Assembly: GCA_947630835.1 (NCBI GenBank)
Contig: CANRIZ010000011.1
Coordinates: 1-64,000 of the forward strand
Direction of reading: 5' to 3'
DNA length: 64,000 bases
Source of the DNA: an uncultured Clostridia bacterium
Lineage (GTDB): Bacteria > Bacillota > Clostridia > Oscillospirales > Acutalibacteraceae
Shown: positions 16,818 to 25,891 of the stretch, piece after piece
Layout of the letters: each line of letters begins with the position of its first letter
Position numbering within the stretch: the stretch's first letter is position 1
The notes under the pieces: model-generated
What the model was told of the DNA's origin: nothing
Database searches by the model: none
The model's input: the letters and a program-made list of their open reading frames with translations, nothing else
Program-made: the position numbers and the translations under genes

Positions 16818-16855
16818 CTCTTCACTATTGCATTTTGGTGACCCGGACGAGAATT

Positions 16856-17070
16856 ACAGGCTTGCGCCTGAGTATTGCTGCGCAATTATCAAATTATATG
16901 TCCCTTTTGCTCGTACCTCGCAAAAGATGGACGATGAGTTCAATTCTCTTGTTAATTTTTATAAATTTGTTCGCACCACGACTTTTCACGTATACTTTTA
17001 CCTATTACTTGCAAATAAATATCCCCCGGCTATGCCGAGGGATATTTATTTGGTGACCCGGACGAGAATT
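16856..17070. repeat. Tandem 215-bp repeat, copy 1, ending in a tRNA-Glu 3'-end copy
   Basis: Nearly identical to 17071-17285; differences are seen only in the first few bases. It ends with about 20 bases of tRNA-Glu 3' end including CCA (on + TGGTGACCCGGACGAGAATT), and the same 20-mer also stands just before it at 16836-16855. Each unit holds a small GCAGGC/GCCTG hairpin, an inverted T-arm-like GAGTTCAATTCTC (16936-16948) and a strong palindrome at 17013-17051. Confidence 0.9.
17013..17051 (-). terminator. Palindromic hairpin of repeat copy 1
   Basis: AAATAAATATCCC and GGGATATTTATTT flank a GGC/GCC core, a long palindrome of terminator type. It is the downstream duplicate of the tRNA terminator at 17228-17266. 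Confidence 0.7.
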
Positions 17071-17285
17071 GCAGGCTTACGCCTGTGTATTGCTGCGCAA
17101 TTATCAAATTATATGTCCCTTTTGCTCGTACCTCGCAAAAGATGGACGATGAGTTCAATTCTCTTGTTAATTTTTATAAATTTGTTCGCACCACGACTTT
17201 TCACGTATACTTTTACCTATTACTTGCAAATAAATATCCCCCGGCTATGCCGAGGGATATTTATTTGGTGACCCGGACGAGAATT
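17071..17285. repeat. Tandem 215-bp repeat, copy 2, fused to the intact tRNA-Glu
   Basis: Second copy at an exact 215-bp offset. Its final 20 bases (17266-17285) are the genuine 3' end of the intact tRNA-Glu gene. Short reading frames across both copies are not credible genes. Confidence 0.9.
17228..17266 (-). terminator. Terminator of the tRNA-Met/tRNA-Glu transcript
   Basis: The same palindrome as in copy 1, starting directly after the encoded CCA of tRNA-Glu on the minus strand and ending in an AT-rich run. Its position is right for the tRNA operon terminator. Confidence 0.8.
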
Positions 17286-17340
17286 GAACTCGTGTTACCG
17301 CCGTGAAAGGGCGGTGTCTTAACCGCTTGACCACCGGGCC
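17266..17340 (-). tRNA. tRNA-Glu (anticodon UUC)
   Basis: 75 bases on the minus strand including an encoded CCA. Acceptor stem GGCCCGG/CCGGGTC, anticodon stem with loop containing TTC, and T arm ACGAG-TTCAATT-CTCGT all fold. It is cotranscribed after tRNA-Met. The last 20 bases are duplicated twice downstream in the 215-bp repeats. Confidence 0.97.
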
Positions 17341-17344
17341 GTAT

Positions 17345-17421
17345 TGGTAGCGGCAGTGGGACTTGAACCTACGACCTTCCGGGTATGAACCGGACGCTCT
17401 AGCCAGCTAAGCTATGCCGCC
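17345..17421 (-). tRNA. tRNA-Met (anticodon CAU)
   Basis: 77 bases on the minus strand with an encoded CCA. Acceptor GGCGGCA/TGCCGCT, anticodon stem TCCGG/CCGGA with CAT in the loop, and T arm GTAGG/CCCAC region. Whether it is an elongator Met or a lysidine-modified Ile2 tRNA cannot be decided by eye; the acceptor stem argues against initiator. It lies 4 bases upstream of tRNA-Glu. Confidence 0.92.
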
Positions 17422-17563: not shown

Positions 17564-17686
17564 TTGCTTTTTCTTACCCTTACGGGCTTATTGCAAAGCT
17601 TTGAAGAATTAATTTCATTTTGGAGCGTAACACAAAACGCGGACAAATCGCCCTGCTTGGACGTTTATATGAAAGGGCTTTTTTAA
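17564..17686 (+). other. Possible 40-codon reading frame ahead of terS
   Basis: An open frame from TTG at 17564 to TAA at 17684-17686 reads ...SFEELISFWSVTQNAD then KSPCLDVYMKGLF, which looks protein-like. There is no ribosome binding site for any start. It ends just before the terS Shine-Dalgarno. It may be the tail of a lost gene at the edge of the phage cassette, or chance. Confidence 0.2.
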
Positions 17687-17710
17687 AACGGCGAAAGGAG
17701 TTATTTGATT

Positions 17711-18205
17711 ATGGAAGAAAAGCTGAGTAAAAAAGAACAGGATTTTTGCAGGTACTATGCGTATTTGCGTTCGCCCCGCGAGGCCGCCGCTCTTGCGGGC
17801 TTTATTTTACTGCCCGAAAGATGCGGGGAAAAGCTGCTTGATAAAAAGAAAATCAGAGATGAGATTTTAAGGCTTGAAGCGCAGCAATCCGATTTCAAGC
17901 TTGCCAAAGCGGGCTTCAGGCGCCTTGCGTTCGGTTCGGTTGCGGACGCGGTAAGATTGCTCGACGGCGAAAGGGAAAACGTTGACGGGCTTGATTTGTT
18001 TATGGTTTCCGATATAAAAATCCCCAAGGGCGGGGGAATGGAAATTAAATTTTTTGACAGGCAAAAGGCTCTCGAATGTCTTGCGTCGATGGAAGGTCTG
18101 TCCGACAACAGCTCAACCATGCCCTTTTACGACGCATTGGAAAAGTCCGCCGCCCTTGTTTCGGGAGCGCCCGAAAACGCTTCCTCCGACGGAGTGGATT
18201 TATGA
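17711..18205 (+). CDS. terS: Phage terminase small subunit-like protein
   Basis: About 164 residues. The N-terminus LSKKEQDFCRYYAYLRSPREAAALAG is the classical small-terminase HTH region that recognises packaging DNA. The C-terminal part is acidic and low in complexity. I prefer the ATG at 17711 (GGAG 10 bases upstream) to a TTG at 17705. Its TGA overlaps the ATG of the large subunit, the usual terS-terL arrangement. Base composition resembles neighbouring host genes, which suggests long residence. Confidence 0.85.
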   Translation: MEEKLSKKEQDFCRYYAYLRSPREAAALAGFILLPERCGEKLLDKKKIRDEILRLEAQQSDFKLAKAGFRRLAFGSVADAVRLLDGERENVDGLDLFMVSDIKIPKGGGMEIKFFDRQKALECLASMEGLSDNSSTMPFYDALEKSAALVSGAPENASSDGVDL

Positions 18206-19467
18206 GAAGCGGCAGTTTTAAAAGCTTTTCCAAAAAGCAATTAACCCTATTAACCTGGTGGTGTAAAAACAGCCCTTTCAATACCTGCGACGCCGTTATT
18301 TGCGACGGCGCGGTGCGAAGCGGCAAAACGCTTTGTATGTTCATTTCATTCGTCTGCTGGGCGTTTTACGAGTTTAACGACAGCTCGTTCGCCCTTTGCG
18401 GAAAAACCGTAACAAGCCTTAGGAGGAACGTCGTTACTCCGATTTTACCCCTATTGTGCGACCTGGGCTTTAAATGCGAGGAAAAGATTTCTAAAAATTA
18501 TATTGAAATTTCCCGCGACGGCAGGCTCAACAGGTTTTACCTTTTCGGCGGCAGGGACGAGTCGTCCGCGGCTCTGATTCAGGGTATGACGCTGGGCGGA
18601 GTTATGCTTGACGAGGTTGCGCTTATGCCGCGTTCGTTTTGCGAGCAGGCAATCGCCCGTTGTTCCGTAGACGGCTCTAAAATCTGGTTTAACTGTAATC
18701 CCGAAAATCCCTCGCATTGGTTCTACAAGGAGTGGATACAAAAGAGAACCGAGAAAAACTGCCTTTATCTTCATTTTGTTATGGAGGATAATCCGTCGCT
18801 TTCAAAGGAAATAATCAAGCGGTACAAAAGCCTGTATTCCGGCGCGTTTTACGAGCGCTTTGTTTTGGGCAAATGGGTTGCCGCAGACGGACTTATCTAT
18901 CCTTTCTTTAACAGGGATTTTATATACGAGGTTCCCGAAGATTTCGACAGCTTTGCGGTTTCGTGCGACTACGGAACGGTCAATCCCACTTCCATGGGGC
19001 TTTGGGGAAGGCACGGCGGCGTATGGTACAGAATCGACGAGTTCTACCACGATTCAAAGCAAAAAGGCTTTCAAATGACCGATGAGGAATACTATGCTTC
19101 ACTCGCTTCCTTAATCGGCGGCAGAAAAACGGAATTTGTTGTTGTAGACCCGTCGGCGGCTTCGTTTATCGAATGTATCAGACGGCACGGGGAATACAGG
19201 GCGGTTAAAGCCGATAACGACGTGCTTGCGGGTATTCGCATAACTTCGGACGCGCTAAAGCAGGGGAAAATCAAAATTTGCAAAACCTGTCCCGATATTA
19301 TAAGGGAATTCAGCCTCTACAGGTGGGACGAGAGCGCAAGGTACGACGCTCCGAGAAAGGAGAACGACCACGCCATGGACGATATGAGATATTTCAGCGT
19401 TACCGCGCTGAAAGAAAAAAAGGATGATTTCTTCGCAGTCAGCTTTTCAAGAGAAAGGGGGTTTTAA
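18202..19467 (+). CDS. terL: Phage terminase large subunit (packaging ATPase-nuclease)
   Basis: 421 residues from the ATG at 18202, which overlaps the terS stop. Walker A GAVRSGKT is at residues 36-43, and the Walker B-like GVMLDEVALM follows. The nuclease domain keeps its acidic residues in VSCDYGTVNP, VVVDPSA and the terminal NDHAMDDMRYF. All motor and nuclease motifs look intact, so this is not an obvious decayed relic. It would pump DNA into capsids through the portal encoded next. Confidence 0.93.
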   Translation: MRSGSFKSFSKKQLTLLTWWCKNSPFNTCDAVICDGAVRSGKTLCMFISFVCWAFYEFNDSSFALCGKTVTSLRRNVVTPILPLLCDLGFKCEEKISKNYIEISRDGRLNRFYLFGGRDESSAALIQGMTLGGVMLDEVALMPRSFCEQAIARCSVDGSKIWFNCNPENPSHWFYKEWIQKRTEKNCLYLHFVMEDNPSLSKEIIKRYKSLYSGAFYERFVLGKWVAADGLIYPFFNRDFIYEVPEDFDSFAVSCDYGTVNPTSMGLWGRHGGVWYRIDEFYHDSKQKGFQMTDEEYYASLASLIGGRKTEFVVVDPSAASFIECIRRHGEYRAVKADNDVLAGIRITSDALKQGKIKICKTCPDIIREFSLYRWDESARYDAPRKENDHAMDDMRYFSVTALKEKKDDFFAVSFSRERGF

Positions 19468-19468
19468 T

Positions 19469-20644
19469 CTGGCTATTTTTAATAAAAAGAAAAGGCAGAG
19501 CGTTTCCGTGCCGGTACTCGCTTCCGAAGCCGAAGCTTTAAGGCGTCCGTTTTCCGCAATAGAGAATTATATGCCCGCCGAGCATATAGAGTACGATTTG
19601 TACGACAGCCTGCGGGAGGCGATACCGATAATCGACGCCGCAATTTACAAAACGGTCAGGCTTACGGGCGGCTTCCGTGTTGAAACCGAGGAAAAACGCT
19701 TCGACAGGATTGTTAACGATTTTGTAAAAGAGGTCAGCACGGACGCAGGGCAAAGCTCTTTGCAGACCTTTATCGACAGCTATTTTGAGCAATTATTGAC
19801 TTACGGCGTGGCAGCGGGAGAAATGCTCGTTGATTCCGACGGTAAAGTAAAATACCTTTACAATGCTTCGTGCAGGAATATCACCTTAAAAAGGAACGAA
19901 AAGAACTTCAACGAGATAGACGTATGCTCAACCGACGGCGTAACCCAAACTCCTGCGGTAAATCAGGATAGGATAATATATTCCACCCTTAACGCAAGGC
20001 CCGGAGAGCTTATCGGCTGTTCCGTGCTGAGGGGACTGCCTTTTGTAAGCGACGTTCTTTTGAAAATTTATAACGCCATAGGTCAGAATTGGGACAGGGT
20101 AGGCAACGTGCGCTTTGCCGTAACCTATAAGCCGAACGATGATTCAAGCTCAAAGGCGTATGCAAAAGAGAGGGCGCTTACCATAGCCGAGGAATGGGGC
20201 AAGGCGATGAAAAGCCGCGAGGTAAGGGATTTTATAGCCGTCGGCGACGTTGACATCAAGGTTATAGGCGCAGACAACCAGATACTTGACAGCGAGGTCC
20301 CCGCAAGGCAGATGCTCGAGCAGATAGTGGCAAAGCTTTCTCTGCCGCCGTTTATGCTCGGTATTTCCTGGTCAACGACCGAAAGAATGTCCCAACAGCA
20401 GGCGGACACTCTTACCTCGGAGCTTGAATTTTACAGAAGAATACTCACTCCGGTAATCAAAAAAATCTGCAAAACGCATCTCAGGGCTTACGGATATACA
20501 AAATCCGTAAACGTCATATGGGACGGCATCACCTTAAAGGATATGCTTGACGAGGCGAACGCGCGTTACCTCAACGCAAAGGCAGACGAAATATATGAAA
20601 GAATCGGCGAGGAAAAGGAGGAAAGCCATGAACAAAAGCTATAA
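19469..20644 (+). CDS. Phage portal protein
   Basis: About 391 residues. It has portal-type features: an N-terminal conserved region LREAIPIIDAAIYKTVRLTGG, a central wing/stem region, and SLPPFMLGISWSTTERMSQQQAD near the C-terminus, typical of portal proteins of clostridial siphophages. The dodecameric ring forms the capsid vertex through which terminase packs DNA. No ATG or GTG fits. The best start is a CTG at 19469, seven bases after GAAAGGGGG and one base after the terL stop. Its 3' end overlaps the protease gene. Confidence 0.9.
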   Translation: MAIFNKKKRQSVSVPVLASEAEALRRPFSAIENYMPAEHIEYDLYDSLREAIPIIDAAIYKTVRLTGGFRVETEEKRFDRIVNDFVKEVSTDAGQSSLQTFIDSYFEQLLTYGVAAGEMLVDSDGKVKYLYNASCRNITLKRNEKNFNEIDVCSTDGVTQTPAVNQDRIIYSTLNARPGELIGCSVLRGLPFVSDVLLKIYNAIGQNWDRVGNVRFAVTYKPNDDSSSKAYAKERALTIAEEWGKAMKSREVRDFIAVGDVDIKVIGADNQILDSEVPARQMLEQIVAKLSLPPFMLGISWSTTERMSQQQADTLTSELEFYRRILTPVIKKICKTHLRAYGYTKSVNVIWDGITLKDMLDEANARYLNAKADEIYERIGEEKEESHEQKL

Positions 20645-21605
20645 TTCAGAGCCGAAATGCGGCGCGGAGGACGTAAGCGAGGAGGATATGGAGCTTATTA
20701 ACTCCTACTCGCGAAAAAAGCTGAAGGCGGAGGACGTCTTTGTGTTTTCCGCCGTGCTTTGCGACAATGAAATAGACCGTGATTTTGAAAGATTTTCCGT
20801 TGAGTCGCTCAAAACCCTGGCGGAGCTTTTTAAGGGCAAGACCGCAATTAAAAACCATTCTATGAATTCGGAGGATCAATCCGCAAGAACGTTCAAGACG
20901 CAGCTTGTAACGGACGAAAGCAAAAAGAACAGTCTCGGCGAGCCTTATGTTTACTTAAAAGCGTACAGCTATATTCCCAGAATTAAAAAGTACGAAAGCC
21001 TGATAGAGGAAATCGAATCGGGCATAAAAAAGGAGGTAAGCGTAAGCTGTTCGGTGGGCAAAAGCATATGCTCGATTTGCGGCGCGGATTTAAGGCAAAG
21101 CGCATGCCATCACAAAAAGGGGAAAAGCTACAAGGGCAAATTGTGCTATTTGGAGCTTAACGACCCGCTCGACGCTTATGAGTGGTCTTTTGTCGCAGTG
21201 CCGGCGCAGAAAAACGCGGGCGTTATAAAAAACTTTAAGGATAAGGAGGAAAACACAGTGGCGCAGGACGCAGTAAAGTCAATTAAAGAACTCGACAGCG
21301 AAATAATTTTAAGCAGGGAAGACGTAAAAGCGCTTAGGGATTACATCGTTTCTGTAGAAACTCAGGCGCAGGACGGCAGGGAGTACAGAAAAGCGCTTGA
21401 AACGGAAACGGTAAAATTATTTGCCCTTACCTCTCCCGAAATTTCAAACGATTGCACTAAAAGCATATGCAAATCGCTTTCTACAAAGGATTTAAAGGAG
21501 CTTAACGGGGCGCTTAAAGAAAAAAATCGGGAGCTTTCCGCTCCGCAGCTTGTTAAAGCAAAACAGCAGAGCGAAAATTCGCTTAATTCACAGTTCAGAT
21601 TTTAA
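20628..21605 (+). CDS. Prohead protease / scaffold-like protein with Cys-rich insertion
   Basis: 325 residues from the ATG at 20628 (GGAGG 7 bases upstream), overlapping the portal end. The HK97-type protease pattern is seen: catalytic His in AIKNHSMN, the Ser region KKEVSVSCSVGK, and the conserved DAYEWSFVAVPAQ. A Cys/His cluster (CSICG ... CHH ... C) sits after the Ser region and could bind zinc. The C-terminal 100 residues are charged and helical, as expected of a scaffold segment cleaved during maturation. It lies directly upstream of the capsid gene. Confidence 0.85.
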   Translation: MNKSYNSEPKCGAEDVSEEDMELINSYSRKKLKAEDVFVFSAVLCDNEIDRDFERFSVESLKTLAELFKGKTAIKNHSMNSEDQSARTFKTQLVTDESKKNSLGEPYVYLKAYSYIPRIKKYESLIEEIESGIKKEVSVSCSVGKSICSICGADLRQSACHHKKGKSYKGKLCYLELNDPLDAYEWSFVAVPAQKNAGVIKNFKDKEENTVAQDAVKSIKELDSEIILSREDVKALRDYIVSVETQAQDGREYRKALETETVKLFALTSPEISNDCTKSICKSLSTKDLKELNGALKEKNRELSAPQLVKAKQQSENSLNSQFRF

Positions 21606-21629
21606 ATTGTAAAAGAAAGGATTAATAAT

Positions 21630-22637
21630 ATGGCTATTTATGAAAATATTAAACTTGACAAAGGACTTTATTCAACGGGCAGAGGCTTTACAAAGGAGCT
21701 TGAAGCCGTTGACCCTTCCGAAAATTACAAAGGCACTTCGCTTGAGGGACTTGACGCCTTTGAAAGACAGTTAAAGCGTTTTAACATTAAAATAAGCGGC
21801 AGCGGCAGCGACGTGATTGAAAAGTTCTTCAAGACCGCGGATTCTGCGGCGCTTTTCCCCGAGTATGTCGCAAGAGCTGTCAGGAAGGGCAAGGAGGAGG
21901 CGGATATACTCCCCTTTATTATAGCTTCAAAAACAAATATCAACGGGCTTGATTACAGAAGCATAGCCTCCGTACCCACCGACGACGACAAGGCGTTGAA
22001 GGACGTTGCCGAGGGCGAAACCATACCCGAAACGGAAATCAAGGTGCAGTCAAATCTCGTTAAACTCAAAAAGCACGGCAGGATGCTCGTCGCTTCTTAC
22101 GAGGCGATAAGGTTTCAGAGGCTCGACCTGTTTACGGTTATGCTTAAACAGATAGGCTCGTATATTGCAAAATCCCAGTTGAGCGAGGCGGTAAAAACTA
22201 TAGTTTCGGGCGACGGCAACAACAACGCCGCCGCAAAGACGGACACGGCTTCCGCGGATAAAATTACATATGCGGATCTTGTTTCGTTCTGGAACAGCTT
22301 TGACCCGTATGAGCTCAACACTATTGTCGCTGCGCCCGACGTTGCGGCGAAAATCCTTGAAATGAGCGAAATGCGCGACGCTGCGGCAGGTCTTAATTTC
22401 CATTCGACGGGTAACGTTATAACCCCTCTCGGCGCAAAGCTTCTTAAAAGCTCGTCGGTAACGGAGGGTTCGCTTATCGGGCTTGATAAAAACTGCGCCC
22501 TTGAAATGGTGCAGGCGGGCGGAATACTCACCGAATACGATAAGCTTATTGACCGTCAGCTTGAGCGAGCGGCAATTACGGAGATTTCCGGCTTTGCCAA
22601 AATTATTACCGAAGCTTCAAAGGTACTCGAGGTTTAA
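21630..22637 (+). CDS. Phage major capsid protein, HK97-fold type
   Basis: 335 residues. The region ALFPEYVARAVRKGKEEADILPFI, followed by GLDYRSI and a glycine/acid E-loop-like segment (DVAEGETIPETEI), resembles the capsid proteins of clostridial siphophages of the HK97 fold. The first 90 residues resemble a delta domain or linker. The ribosome site GAAAGGA precedes the ATG. It is expected to assemble an icosahedral shell processed by the preceding protease. The reading frame is intact. Confidence 0.88.
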   Translation: MAIYENIKLDKGLYSTGRGFTKELEAVDPSENYKGTSLEGLDAFERQLKRFNIKISGSGSDVIEKFFKTADSAALFPEYVARAVRKGKEEADILPFIIASKTNINGLDYRSIASVPTDDDKALKDVAEGETIPETEIKVQSNLVKLKKHGRMLVASYEAIRFQRLDLFTVMLKQIGSYIAKSQLSEAVKTIVSGDGNNNAAAKTDTASADKITYADLVSFWNSFDPYELNTIVAAPDVAAKILEMSEMRDAAAGLNFHSTGNVITPLGAKLLKSSSVTEGSLIGLDKNCALEMVQAGGILTEYDKLIDRQLERAAITEISGFAKIITEASKVLEV

Positions 22638-22651
22638 TCGGAGGAATTTCG

Positions 22652-23014
22652 ATGATTGATGTAATCAAGGTTGCCAAGGCGGTTAAAAGGCTTACCAATA
22701 TGCCGAATTCGAGGGTAAACGAGCTGATACCGACCGTAAAGGGAGTCTGCGCGGAGCTTTCCGGCCGCCTTAAAAAGGAGGAATACGCCGACGACTTTCG
22801 GGCAATAAACGCCGCAGTGTATTTGAGCTATTACCGTCTTGTTCTCAGGCAGATACTAACGGGCGATTATCCCGATTATTTTAAGCTCGGCGATATTACC
22901 GTTACCCAGAGCCCGTCGCTCATACTTGAAAAGGCCGCCAAGCTCAGGGACGACGCCGTATGCGGGGCTTCGTGCCTGCTTGAGGACATTGATTTTATAT
23001 TCAGGCAGGTGTGA
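22652..23014 (+). CDS. Putative head-tail connector (adaptor) protein
   Basis: 120 residues, mostly helical. It has no motif I can name with certainty. Its position directly after the capsid gene, its size and its helical, charged composition (SRVNELIPTVKGVC, YLSYYRLVLRQIL) fit the adaptor ring that binds the portal. The site GGAGG lies before the ATG. The assignment is from gene order, not from recognised sequence. Confidence 0.55.
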   Translation: MIDVIKVAKAVKRLTNMPNSRVNELIPTVKGVCAELSGRLKKEEYADDFRAINAAVYLSYYRLVLRQILTGDYPDYFKLGDITVTQSPSLILEKAAKLRDDAVCGASCLLEDIDFIFRQV

Positions 23015-23017
23015 TTT

Positions 23018-23356
23018 TTGGAATATCCCAAAATAGATTTCAAAAAGTACGGCGAAAGCGTATTCGTTTCTGATGATAACTGGAGGTCGGAAACGTACTA
23101 CGCTTGCATCAGACCGCTCAGATACAAAAACAAAATGTATATGACGGGTAATCTTACCGAGATAGGCCATTACGACGAGGGCTATTATCTTTACATAGGC
23201 CCGCCGCAGATTTTGCTTGAAAATCTTACGCTCAGGGCGGTGCTTACAACTGCGGGAGGTAAAAAATACAATATCTTTAAAACCGAACGCATATGTTTAG
23301 CCGATAAGCCCGTATATGTATGGGCAATTCTCAGGCTTAAACCGGCAGGTGATTAA
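23018..23356 (+). CDS. Putative head-closure (stopper-like) protein
   Basis: 112 residues starting at a TTG three bases after the preceding stop. It is rich in beta-type, Tyr-containing stretches (ETYYACIRPLRY, GYYLYIGPPQILL). I do not recognise the family. In siphophage gene order this slot holds the small beta-barrel stopper between adaptor and tail. It is adjacent, without a gap, to the next gene. Confidence 0.45.
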   Translation: MEYPKIDFKKYGESVFVSDDNWRSETYYACIRPLRYKNKMYMTGNLTEIGHYDEGYYLYIGPPQILLENLTLRAVLTTAGGKKYNIFKTERICLADKPVYVWAILRLKPAGD

Positions 23357-23779
23357 ATGCTTTATCCAAGTCAGATAGTTCCGATAGTTGTCAAGAAGTT
23401 AAAGCAGAGCTCGGAGTTTGCCGATACGGTTATTTTTACCGAATATGACACGAATATAGACGAAAAACCGAATGCGGAGGTCTTTATTGCGGTCGGACTC
23501 GACAGCTATTACATAAGCGAGGATTTAGACGAATTCGGTCAGCCGACGGATACGAGAGAGTATACCGCCGAGGTAAAAATAAGCTATTACGGCAAGTACA
23601 GAAACGGGGCGGCAAAATGTTATTTCCTTATCGACAAAACAATCAGAACGATGTTTGAGCAGTTTACGGCTCCGGACGCCGTCAAGGGCTTAAAGTGTTC
23701 AAGCGCGGCATACCGCCGCGACGTGGACAGTATAGTAGTGGATTTGACCTTTGAAATTAAGGGAATTTACTACGCTTGA
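23357..23779 (+). CDS. Putative tail-terminator/head-tail joining protein
   Basis: 140 residues. It begins MLYPSQIVPIVVKKL and alternates helices and strands (AEVKISYYGKYRN, VDLTFEIKGIYYA), similar to tail-terminator or tail-completion proteins that normally precede the tail tube gene. No tail gene follows: a terminator begins 20 bases after the stop and then comes glgB. The function is inferred from position and fold-like composition. Confidence 0.5.
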   Translation: MLYPSQIVPIVVKKLKQSSEFADTVIFTEYDTNIDEKPNAEVFIAVGLDSYYISEDLDEFGQPTDTREYTAEVKISYYGKYRNGAAKCYFLIDKTIRTMFEQFTAPDAVKGLKCSSAAYRRDVDSIVVDLTFEIKGIYYA

Positions 23780-23798
23780 CAATCTAAAAACATATCGG

Positions 23799-23833
23799 TA
23801 CGCGCAGGATTTTCAGTCCTGCGCGTATTTTTT
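23799..23833 (+). terminator. Terminator closing the phage head cassette
   Basis: An 11-bp perfect stem, TACGCGCAGGA (23799-23809) with TCCTGCGCGTA (23817-23827), followed by TTTTTT. Confidence 0.95.
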
Positions 23834-23986: not shown

Positions 23987-25891
23987 ATGTCTGAAACTCT
24001 TTTGAAAAAAGCCGAAAAAGAAAGAGAGGTTCCGCTTTATCTTTTTCACGAGGGCAGCAACTCTCATTCTTACGAATATTTCGGTTCGCATAGGAAAAAT
24101 AAAGATACCGTTGTTTTCAGGGTTTGGGCTCCTCACGCTAAGTCCGTAAGCGTTGTAGGCGATTTCAACAATTGGGACGCAAATGCAAATTGTATGAGCT
24201 TTATTGAAAATTCCGGCGGCGTTTGGGAGTGCGGTATTGAGGGTATCAAGCAGTATGATAACTATAAATACGCCATAACGGCTCGGGATTCGAGAGTCAT
24301 TTTGAAAAGCGACCCCTACGCCGTTCATATGGAAACAAGGCCGGGAACCGCTTCAAAATTTTATGAAATAGACAATTGCTTTGAGTGGTCGGACGAAGAA
24401 TGGCTCGGCAAAAGGAAGGGGAAAAATATTTATAAATCCCCCGTCAATATTTACGAGGTGCATGCGGGCTCGTGGAAACGCAACGAGGACGGCAGCTTTT
24501 ATTCCTACCGTATGCTTGCAGACGAGCTTGTGCCCTACGTTAAAAAAATGGGCTATACTCATATCGAGTTTATGCCTTTAACCGAATATCCGTTCGACGG
24601 AAGCTGGGGCTATCAGGTTACGGGTTATTTTTCCGCAACCTCCCGCTACGGTACGCCCGCCGATTTGATGTATCTTGTAAACAAGTGCCACAGGGCGGGC
24701 ATAGGCGTAATACTCGACTGGGTTCCGGCGCATTTCCCGAAAGACGCCAACGGGCTTTACGAATTTGACGGCCAACCGCTTTACGAATACGACGACCCGA
24801 GAAAGGGCGAGCATTACGGCTGGGGAACGAAGGTGTTTGATTTCGGCAAGACCGAGGTGCGCTCTTTCCTGATGTCAAGCGCAAATTTCTGGCTTAAAAA
24901 ATATCACCTCGACGGCATTAGAATCGACGCCGTCGCCTCGATGCTTTACCTCGATTACGACCGTAAGGACGGCGAATGGATTGCCAATAAAAACGGCGGC
25001 AAGGAAAATCTTGAGGCGGTTGAGTTTTTGCAGAAGCTCAACGAAAACATTTTTGCGGAATTTCCCCACGCCTTGATGATAGCCGAGGAAAGCACCTCTT
25101 GGCCTATGGTTTCAAAGCCTGTGTTTATGGGCGGCTTGGGCTTTAATTTCAAGTGGAATATGGGCTGGATGAACGATATTTTAAGGTATTTTTCGCTTGA
25201 CGGCTTTTTCAGAAAATACAATCACGACTGCATCACGTTTTCAATGTTTTACGCATTTTCGGAGAATTTCGTGCTTCCCATTTCCCACGACGAGGTTGTA
25301 CACGGCAAATGCTCGCTTATAAACAAAATGCCGGGAGTGTACGATGAAAAATTCGCCGGTGTGCGCGCGTTTTTGGGCTATATGATGGCTCACCCCGGGA
25401 AAAAGCTTATGTTTATGGGCTCGGAGTTCGGTCAGTTTATCGAGTGGAATTACGAACAGGGGCTTGACTGGCTGCTGCTCGATTACGAAAAACACCGTCA
25501 ACTGCAATTTTATTTTAAGAGCATAAACAGCTTTTATCGCAAAAATTCTCCTATGTGGGAGGTCGATTATTCCTGGGAGGGCTTTTCTTGGATTTCGTCC
25601 GACGATAACGACAATTCCGTTATAGCATTCAGGCGGATTGACGAAAAAGGCAAGGAAATAATAGTAGTTTGTAATTTTACCAACGTAGAGCGAGAAAACT
25701 ATAGAATAGGCGTTCCCAAAAAGGGAAATTACAAGGTTGTTTTCAATTCCGACGCTGTTGAGTTCGGCGGCTTGGGCAAAGGTAACGGCGATAAAATAAA
25801 AACGGAAGAAATAAATATGCACGGCTTCGAGCAGAGCGTAAGCTTGGATTTGCCTCCGCTGTCTGCAATCTATATCAAAAAGACGGTTTAA
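23987..25891 (+). CDS. glgB: 1,4-alpha-glucan branching enzyme GlgB
   Basis: 634 residues. An N-terminal CBM48-like domain ([21 protein letters not shown]) precedes the GH13 barrel. The barrel shows the nucleophile Asp in [16 protein letters not shown], the acid Glu in [10 protein letters not shown] and the transition-state pair in [14 protein letters not shown]-terminal beta domain follows. It introduces alpha-1,6 branches into glycogen. First gene of glgBCDA. The start at 23987 has only a weak GAGG site, at 23974-23977. Confidence 0.97.

Follow-up and report, generated by a model that had tools for sequence, protein, structure and literature searches.

Gene transfer agent (GTA)-like packaging has been reported for several gut taxa, and the report (PMC12946183; Nat Commun, January 2026) names a candidate operon only in Faecalibacterium, a GTA-like element called FpGTA I/II. 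Here we analyze an operon of eight consecutive plus-strand genes for a phage head and its DNA packaging, at positions 17711-23779 of a 64-kb stretch of DNA (the window) on contig 11 of the genome (2.1 Mb, 39 contigs) of an uncultured Clostridia bacterium; this cassette is flanked by a divergent tRNA pair and the glycogen gene glgB. A literature search for such an element in Ruminococcus bromii, its family, or Clostridia brought up only FpGTA, which by hosts and gene content is the nearest described system, compared here by description and not by sequence. Both are chromosomal phage-derived head operons of gut Clostridia with the order TerS-TerL-portal-scaffold-capsid and without replication genes. 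FpGTA I comprises ten ORFs in 10.5 kb, and the window's operon has eight genes in approximately 6.1 kb. FpGTA was found in 12 of 12 Faecalibacterium genomes examined and its particles had no identifiable tail; in some Faecalibacterium strains, baseplate, fibre, and lysis genes form a second locus, and in one strain the operons lie approximately 125 kb apart (PMC12946183).

PBSX of Bacillus subtilis, which does not inject the DNA that it packages (as noted in PMC12946183), resembles the locus in its large terminase, since TerL of the window belongs to the PBSX family (TIGR01547, 199 bits), and in that fuller relatives of the cassette have downstream sheath, tube, and baseplate genes. It differs in that the window's operon and surroundings had no sheath, tube, or baseplate match and the eight genes no holin or endolysin match, and no PBSX-like contractile tail adjoined the cassette in 18 of 18 loci of the genus with enough flanking sequence. 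RcGTA and the other alphaproteobacterial GTAs, compared by description only, likewise consist of phage head genes inherited vertically; they differ in having tailed particles and demonstrated transfer (PMC9662315). That article names as GTA features proteins of tailed-phage origin, packaging of mostly random host DNA, endogenization, a locus too large to be packaged, vertical inheritance, and delivery. Three of these six are found here: the proteins match tailed-phage families in PHROGs, Pfam, and NCBIfam; the cassette is endogenized, sitting in the chromosome between tRNA and glg genes, with no mobility family among its eight genes and with conservation in the genus; and it has co-diversified with the host as judged by TerL (r = 0.93-0.96), for markers that are linked and with a less congruent capsid. 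The other three features need experiments, and the cassette is therefore filed as GTA-like and not as a proven GTA.

The cassette is an intact, conserved, inherited chromosomal part of its genus and not a decaying remnant. We regard it as rather likely that it is a domesticated, PBSX-derived, GTA-like DNA-packaging head owned by the host. The eight plus-strand ORFs listed in an earlier note on this DNA, made from the letters alone, were recovered at the same positions, although its start at 17564 takes in approximately 150 bases of leader ahead of the genes themselves. The gene starts used here are our choice, the ORF list having longer frames for TerS, TerL, the portal gene, and the fourth gene. 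All frames were open, as had been said, and because the same operon recurs throughout the genus this goes beyond chance. The overlaps are preserved as well, with 4 bases between TerS and TerL and 17 bases between the portal and fourth genes. A strong intrinsic terminator with a 15-pair stem (23797..23829, plus strand) closes the operon, and glgB begins downstream of it at 23987, again in agreement with the earlier note.

The identities of the encoded proteins were assigned with differing strength. TerS, the small terminase subunit (17711..18205), matched Pfam Terminase_2 (34.2 bits versus a cutoff of 26.1) and PHROG 51, and TerL (18202..19467) matched the "PBSX family" terminase of NCBIfam (TIGR01547) at 199 bits versus a cutoff of 105. 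What we take to be the Walker and nuclease motif residues of TerL were invariant in the 105 to 107 loci that cover them (6 counted twice), which bears out the claim that its ATPase and nuclease residues are retained. The portal protein (19469..20644, TTG start assumed) matched PHROG 30703 with an E value of 9e-120, yet fell under the Pfam and NCBIfam portal cutoffs. The fourth gene (20628..21605) matched PHROG 16951 (E 5e-97), to which no function is assigned, and is termed prohead protease- or scaffold-like from its operon position. The HK97-type major capsid protein (21630..22637) matched PHROG 3922 (E 6e-103), Pfam Phage_capsid_4 (58.7 versus a cutoff of 27), and, just over its cutoff of 27.5, NCBIfam TIGR01554 (27.8 bits); its profile had no match among solved structures. 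The presumed connectors g6 (22652..23014, syntenic across the genus) and g7 (23018..23356, TTG start, with homologues in 102 loci, some counted twice) are adaptor-like and stopper-like by position, and gave no informative match in PHROGs, Pfam, NCBIfam, or solved structures. The fast-evolving g8 (23357..23779) is tail-terminator-like: its best solved-structure match, a weak one (E 0.24), was minor tail protein U, the lambda-type tail terminator, and its profile matched long (>250 aa) homologues with 97.8% probability. Of the complete head and packaging set proposed earlier, TerS, TerL, portal, and capsid thus stand by family match and the fourth gene by position, and the adaptor, stopper, and terminator labels are positional, with the weak structural match for g8. 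None of the eight genes matched a holin, endolysin, integrase, primase, regulator, or replication family.

Of the 36 genus genomes, the window's own included, 34 had the capsid gene, at 50 to 96% identity; absence from close relatives, which the earlier note would have counted against its proposal, was thus not seen. In genomes G034 and G035 the gene is interrupted by contig ends. Among 23 genomes of the same order but outside the genus in the genus sample, it was found in one. Of 200 family genomes 112 had it, representing 79 of 135 genera, with one match in each genome and an internal stop in none (two matches at contig ends were partial); across the order it occurred in 43 of 295 genomes spanning six families. 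Two further collections were compared. The best 80 of 297 relatives from a scan of genome contigs (L076-L155) carry titles that are mostly uncultured Clostridia, Ruminococcus, and Oscillospiraceae, R. bromii 5AMG among them, and 8 of these 80 named-collection loci are the same contigs as genus loci. The 93 distinct capsid loci on viral contigs (L164-L256) came from 34 loci of one list and the best 80 of 360 of another. In both collections the capsid was homologous, with 47 to 96% identity, and lay beside the same head genes, apart from three lone copies. Genome G025 has two capsid loci, on contigs C33 and C47, that are 77% identical in DNA and reflect duplication or contamination.

Purifying selection on the cassette was strong. 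A dN/dS comparison, which the earlier note had proposed for terL and the capsid genes, gave, for the window against G001, the relative closest to it, ratios of 0.026 to 0.157 across the eight genes and 0.016 to 0.052 for the host glg genes; the relaxed selection named as a contrary outcome was not seen. The dS values were 0.66 to 1.0 for the genes from terS to the capsid and 0.62 to 0.87 for the glg genes, climbed to 1.4 to 2.3 in g6-g8, and dropped back in glgB. The G001 homologue of g8 (L032) is 50% identical to that of the window and the capsid 96%, and the 3' end of the operon may have been partly exchanged by recombination. In alignments of seven of the genes we found 12 apparent stops, all of them C-terminal or nearly so: in L145, TerS stops at residue 141 of 164, and the other 11 stops lie 12 or fewer residues from the end. 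Protein distances for TerL correlated with those of two flanking host ABC-transporter genes (r = 0.956 and 0.940, n = 17) and of glgB (r = 0.930, n = 8), the two transporter genes correlating with each other at r = 0.971 (n = 18); for the portal protein and the fourth gene the correlations with host genes were 0.90 to 0.92. Formate-tetrahydrofolate ligase (FTHFS) was dropped as a host marker because two types exist, a genus-mate being 61% identical and a genome of another genus 89%.

To class loci by their tails we used downstream tblastn matches to the tail proteins of three relatives. All 18 genus loci whose downstream sequence reached 7.5 kb or more lacked a sheath, baseplate, or fibre-like match; the lack of a tail module beside the cassette, first remarked in the window, is thus common to all 18 head-only loci, and no adjoining tail module, the remaining outcome listed against the proposal, came to light in the genus. 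Among the 50 named-collection loci with enough flank, 29 had a baseplate (12 with a fibre-like domain as well), in 17 the sole match was a fusion of g8 with that domain, and the four without any tail match are contigs of the window's genus. The 27 viral-contig loci with flank and head neighbors comprised 23 with sheath and baseplate, two with baseplate, one with the fusion, and one with nothing. For other families of the order, a sheath match was obtained in 10 of 17 loci and in none of L062, L339, and L345-L349. The relatives accordingly form a series from head plus sheath and baseplate, through head plus baseplate and head with a fusion of g8 to the fibre-like domain, to head only. Loci of the R. 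bromii type, annotated on L132, keep LysM/DNA-circularization, hub, spike-like, sheath-initiator, baseplate-J, and gp48-like genes (for spike and gp48, with matches below Pfam cutoffs) and have no sheath match. Because many relatives outside the genus have an adjacent baseplate, the ancestral one was probably lost in the lineage of the window and its genus.

The fusion is supported from both of its ends. The N-terminal part of the long g8 homologues (24 proteins of >250 aa) aligns with g8 at 99.8% in a profile alignment, and their C-terminal part at 99.4% with the last gene of baseplate-type loci, L110 versus L132 giving a BLAST E value of 9e-19; at least three of the long homologues (L119, L122, and L153) belong to baseplate-type loci and are apparently other fusions. 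The label "fibre-like" was taken from weak similarity to a PHROG for tail fibres (E 0.045) and to tailocin and tail fibres (E 0.03-0.36), and the fusion profile (A8) weakly matched Gp15 among solved structures (E 0.13). In the record MT835769 (L070) a capsid relative precedes sheath and tube, and between these and a LysM-like gene lies only a 183-aa ORF, so that a long tape-measure gene is lacking; from this layout the tails of the fuller relatives may also be very short.

We also searched for tail genes elsewhere in the genomes, as the earlier note had advised. A hub profile, which picked up its positive controls in two relatives, found nothing in any of the 36 genus genomes or in four fusion-type genomes. 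Within the family, the hub was present in 60 of the 112 capsid-bearing genomes; in 58 it follows the capsid on the same strand at a distance of 1.25 to 4.4 kb, and the other two have it on a separate contig. Two more genomes have a hub but no capsid match. Baseplate J and sheath occurred in two of the 36 genus genomes, G012 (contig C304) and G035 (contig C11), both genes on one contig that is not the cassette's, and these contigs are probably separate prophages or tailocins. The sheath family had no match elsewhere in the window's own genome. The fibre-like domain was found in none of nine genus genomes tested, versus four of four controls; a first search for it (A1) had given 0 of 59 without a positive control. 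From the hub, baseplate, sheath, and fibre results a homologous tail therefore seems gone from the genus, G012 and G035 being the exceptions; these negatives cover homologues of the relatives' tails, and unrelated tail or lysis families were not searched for.

The start of the operon carries a shared element. At positions 17658..17677 of the plus strand, upstream of terS, lies a promoter-like sequence common to 24 upstream regions of the genus (consensus TnGnnCTATnTATGAAAGGn), found as an expectation-maximization (EM) motif with a score of 333 from 60 seeds; 15 Markov-resampled control sets (30 seeds each) scored 189 ± 5.6, with a maximum of 198. Left out of the motif set beforehand were L053 and L059, in which the element is further upstream, L055, with a run of N, and L062, of another family. 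At a scan threshold passed by 20 of the 24 motif sites, the 64-kb window gave a single match to the element; 559 kb of genus loci gave 22, of which 19 are the sites upstream of terS, two lie in L053 and L059, and one (L054) is elsewhere. By a looser score, which had no control of its own, it was recognizable in 47 of 81 upstream regions, other genera included. The longest perfect inverted repeat in these 47 regions averaged 7.1 pairs, compared with 4.0 ± 0.13 in 50 shuffles; a repeat of at least six pairs, present in 22 of the 47 loci (the window's own repeat is not among them), was centered 27.0 ± 1.6 bases upstream of the element, its sequence varying among groups and its position constant. 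A promoter scan found no sigma-70-like site on the plus strand between the tRNAs and terS. We read the element as a putative dedicated promoter/operator; an alternative reading is a packaging site beside terS. In L053 and L059 the element is approximately 0.4 to 0.5 kb upstream of terS, with an extra ORF of approximately 120 to 150 aa between them, a possible regulator.

A working model can be stated for the domesticated packaging head. An operon derived from a PBSX-like prophage would build a small HK97-type head and pump DNA into it. A subset of cells would express the operon, the terminase would load short stretches of the cell's own chromosome into heads with no particular target, and lysis would release the particles, so the operon would act as a gene transfer agent through the packaging step. 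With the ancestral baseplate lost, delivery would either be absent, leaving protected DNA for neighbors, or proceed via a factor non-homologous to the original tail. Several observations weigh against this interpretation. The capsid match is missing from two of the 36 genus genomes, G015 (81% complete) and G030 (96%), and from 88 of the 200 family genomes, and in G017, next to a stretch of N, TerL and the portal gene are absent and TerS and the fourth gene incomplete. Capsid distances follow the host genes less well (r = 0.62-0.78), and the operon is therefore partly mosaic; the host markers, moreover, adjoin the cassette and are linked to it, and distances were compared instead of trees, so the correlation shows co-inheritance of the region. 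Seven of the 17 loci from other families have no sheath, five or six of them no tail match of any kind, and the head-only state may not be special to the genus, or the queries may miss divergent tails. The cassette of the genus is, finally, a predicted system that has been seen as genes and not as particles, packaged DNA, or transfer, and a head without a delivery organ would fall outside the usual definition of a GTA.

Three explanations had been put forward earlier: a capsid-forming phage satellite, a domesticated GTA-like module, and a fresh deletion. The presence of the capsid in 34 of 36 genomes, purifying selection, covariation with the host, and the upstream element support the domesticated module. 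That the cassette is a neutral prophage remnant, recently created by deletion, is scarcely credible: tail genes were apparently lost relative to other genera and a further deletion occurred in G017, but the operon is open throughout the genus, with dN/dS of 0.03 to 0.16, stops near C-terminal ends only, and a common upstream element. A fresh deletion in particular is contradicted because the same tail-less operon, with capsid identities of 50 to 96%, spans the genus. Capsid-forming satellites carry head and packaging genes without tail genes, and a satellite of this type (cf-PICI-like), supplying the capsid itself and borrowing the tails, would match the gene set of the window. The earlier doubt about it, for want of integrase and replication genes, was nevertheless borne out; no integrase, primase, regulator, or replication family was matched among the eight genes (the neighborhood was not scanned by profiles), the operon varies like chromosomal genes, and in much of the family a baseplate belonging to the operon comes after it, which makes the satellite very improbable. 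A literature search on satellites of this kind returned nothing relevant by titles. Possible, though we think it unlikely, is a full GTA whose tail, receptor-binding, and lysis genes occupy a second, non-homologous locus as in Faecalibacterium. Split loci are described for FpGTA in PMC12946183, and g8 weakly resembles a tail terminator, which is normally joined to a tail; against this, the homologue searches for hub (0 of 36), for sheath with baseplate J (G012 and G035, off the cassette contig), and for the fibre-like domain (0 of 9) located no such tail, within the scope given above.

Lone copies of the capsid gene in phages bear on a further rival, in which the operon serves conflict with phages or competitors, by interference with assembly or as a killing particle. 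Three of the 93 viral-contig loci have the capsid without the other cassette head genes; loci with 1.5 kb or less of upstream sequence could not be flagged in this screen, and the result has no proper control, the terL scan not having been screened for lone copies. The contig of L164 (10001-10981) spans 34.5 kb and also has a terminase, portal, HK97 capsid, and tail tube of its own; L168 (7359-8366) is a contig with an integrase, and its capsid differs from that of R. bromii 5AMG at three residues by eye; L196 (6450-7385) is on a 70.9-kb contig, 11.6 kb of which was read. In genome G035, contig C15 (L066), which carries YqaJ and RecT genes and others that look SSB-like by eye, runs into a capsid start from approximately 9801 that is 96.6% identical to the cassette copy over 205 bases. 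The capsids of L164 and L196 are short by 9 and 29 residues in one segment, perhaps the E-loop by the analogy with HK97 that we assume, and the other 219 of 221 loci (some counted twice), L168 included, by four or fewer. Such deletions in two of the three complete phage copies are what a decoy subunit would show, and with the G035 copy they speak for the conflict reading; but PADLOC defence models had no match in the cassette, the L168 copy has no deletion, and the decoy role is putative, and we consider conflict improbable as the purpose of the operon. A portal query with narrow patterns found no relative in viral contigs, and the literature held nothing relevant on phage-borne capsid copies by titles. 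A more elaborate proposal is that the genus, at the end point of a stepwise tail loss, keeps a complete, regulated packaging head without a delivery organ, and that the capsid of this head is in an arms race, phages of these hosts having repeatedly taken the capsid gene alone and some loop-deleted copies co-assembling with the host particles and poisoning them; we hold it to be doubtful. If it were true, the particle would be something that phages must disable, beyond a means of slow gene exchange.

Few lineages are known to carry GTAs, and there is dispute over what these do. The operon family described here can be traced across many gut Clostridia genera, in which the tail has been lost to several different degrees. 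The upstream signature provides a handle for finding the controller, R. bromii is a named carrier species, and the lone phage capsid genes are an independent handle on the role of the particle. Head-only particles, should they prove real, would make the gain from packaging DNA separable from the gain from injecting it. The cassette family also offers candidate genes for the gut taxa beyond Faecalibacterium that are mentioned in PMC12946183.

The record MT835508 (L069), titled Bacteriophage sp. and derived from human faeces, proved to be a chromosomal contig of a genus relative, with ribosomal protein, rpoA, and secY-like genes by eye and 87.6% identity to genome G005 over 20 kb that include the cassette. 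It is compatible with encapsidated host DNA, to which it would bear witness had it come from particles, but may reflect contamination or misclassification. As a test for contamination of virus-like particle (VLP) preparations, RpoA and FTHFS were compared with phage records; the 22 and 40 records obtained held nothing genus-specific, and many were evidently bacterial contigs from several sources. A link of MT835508 to a Mexican virome study was not established, its accession prefix being absent from the text of PMC8361208 as available. Upstream of the operon and outside it, the divergent tRNA-Glu and tRNA-Met genes (17266..17421, minus strand) were identified by ARAGORN and Rfam, with tRNAs the only Rfam matches above the gathering threshold and all others below it. 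Abutting the 3' end of tRNA-Glu, at 16834-17263, is a 215-base tandem duplication with 99% identity between its copies, each of which opens, by eye, with approximately the last 19 bases of the tRNA gene, a repeated segment resembling an attachment site.

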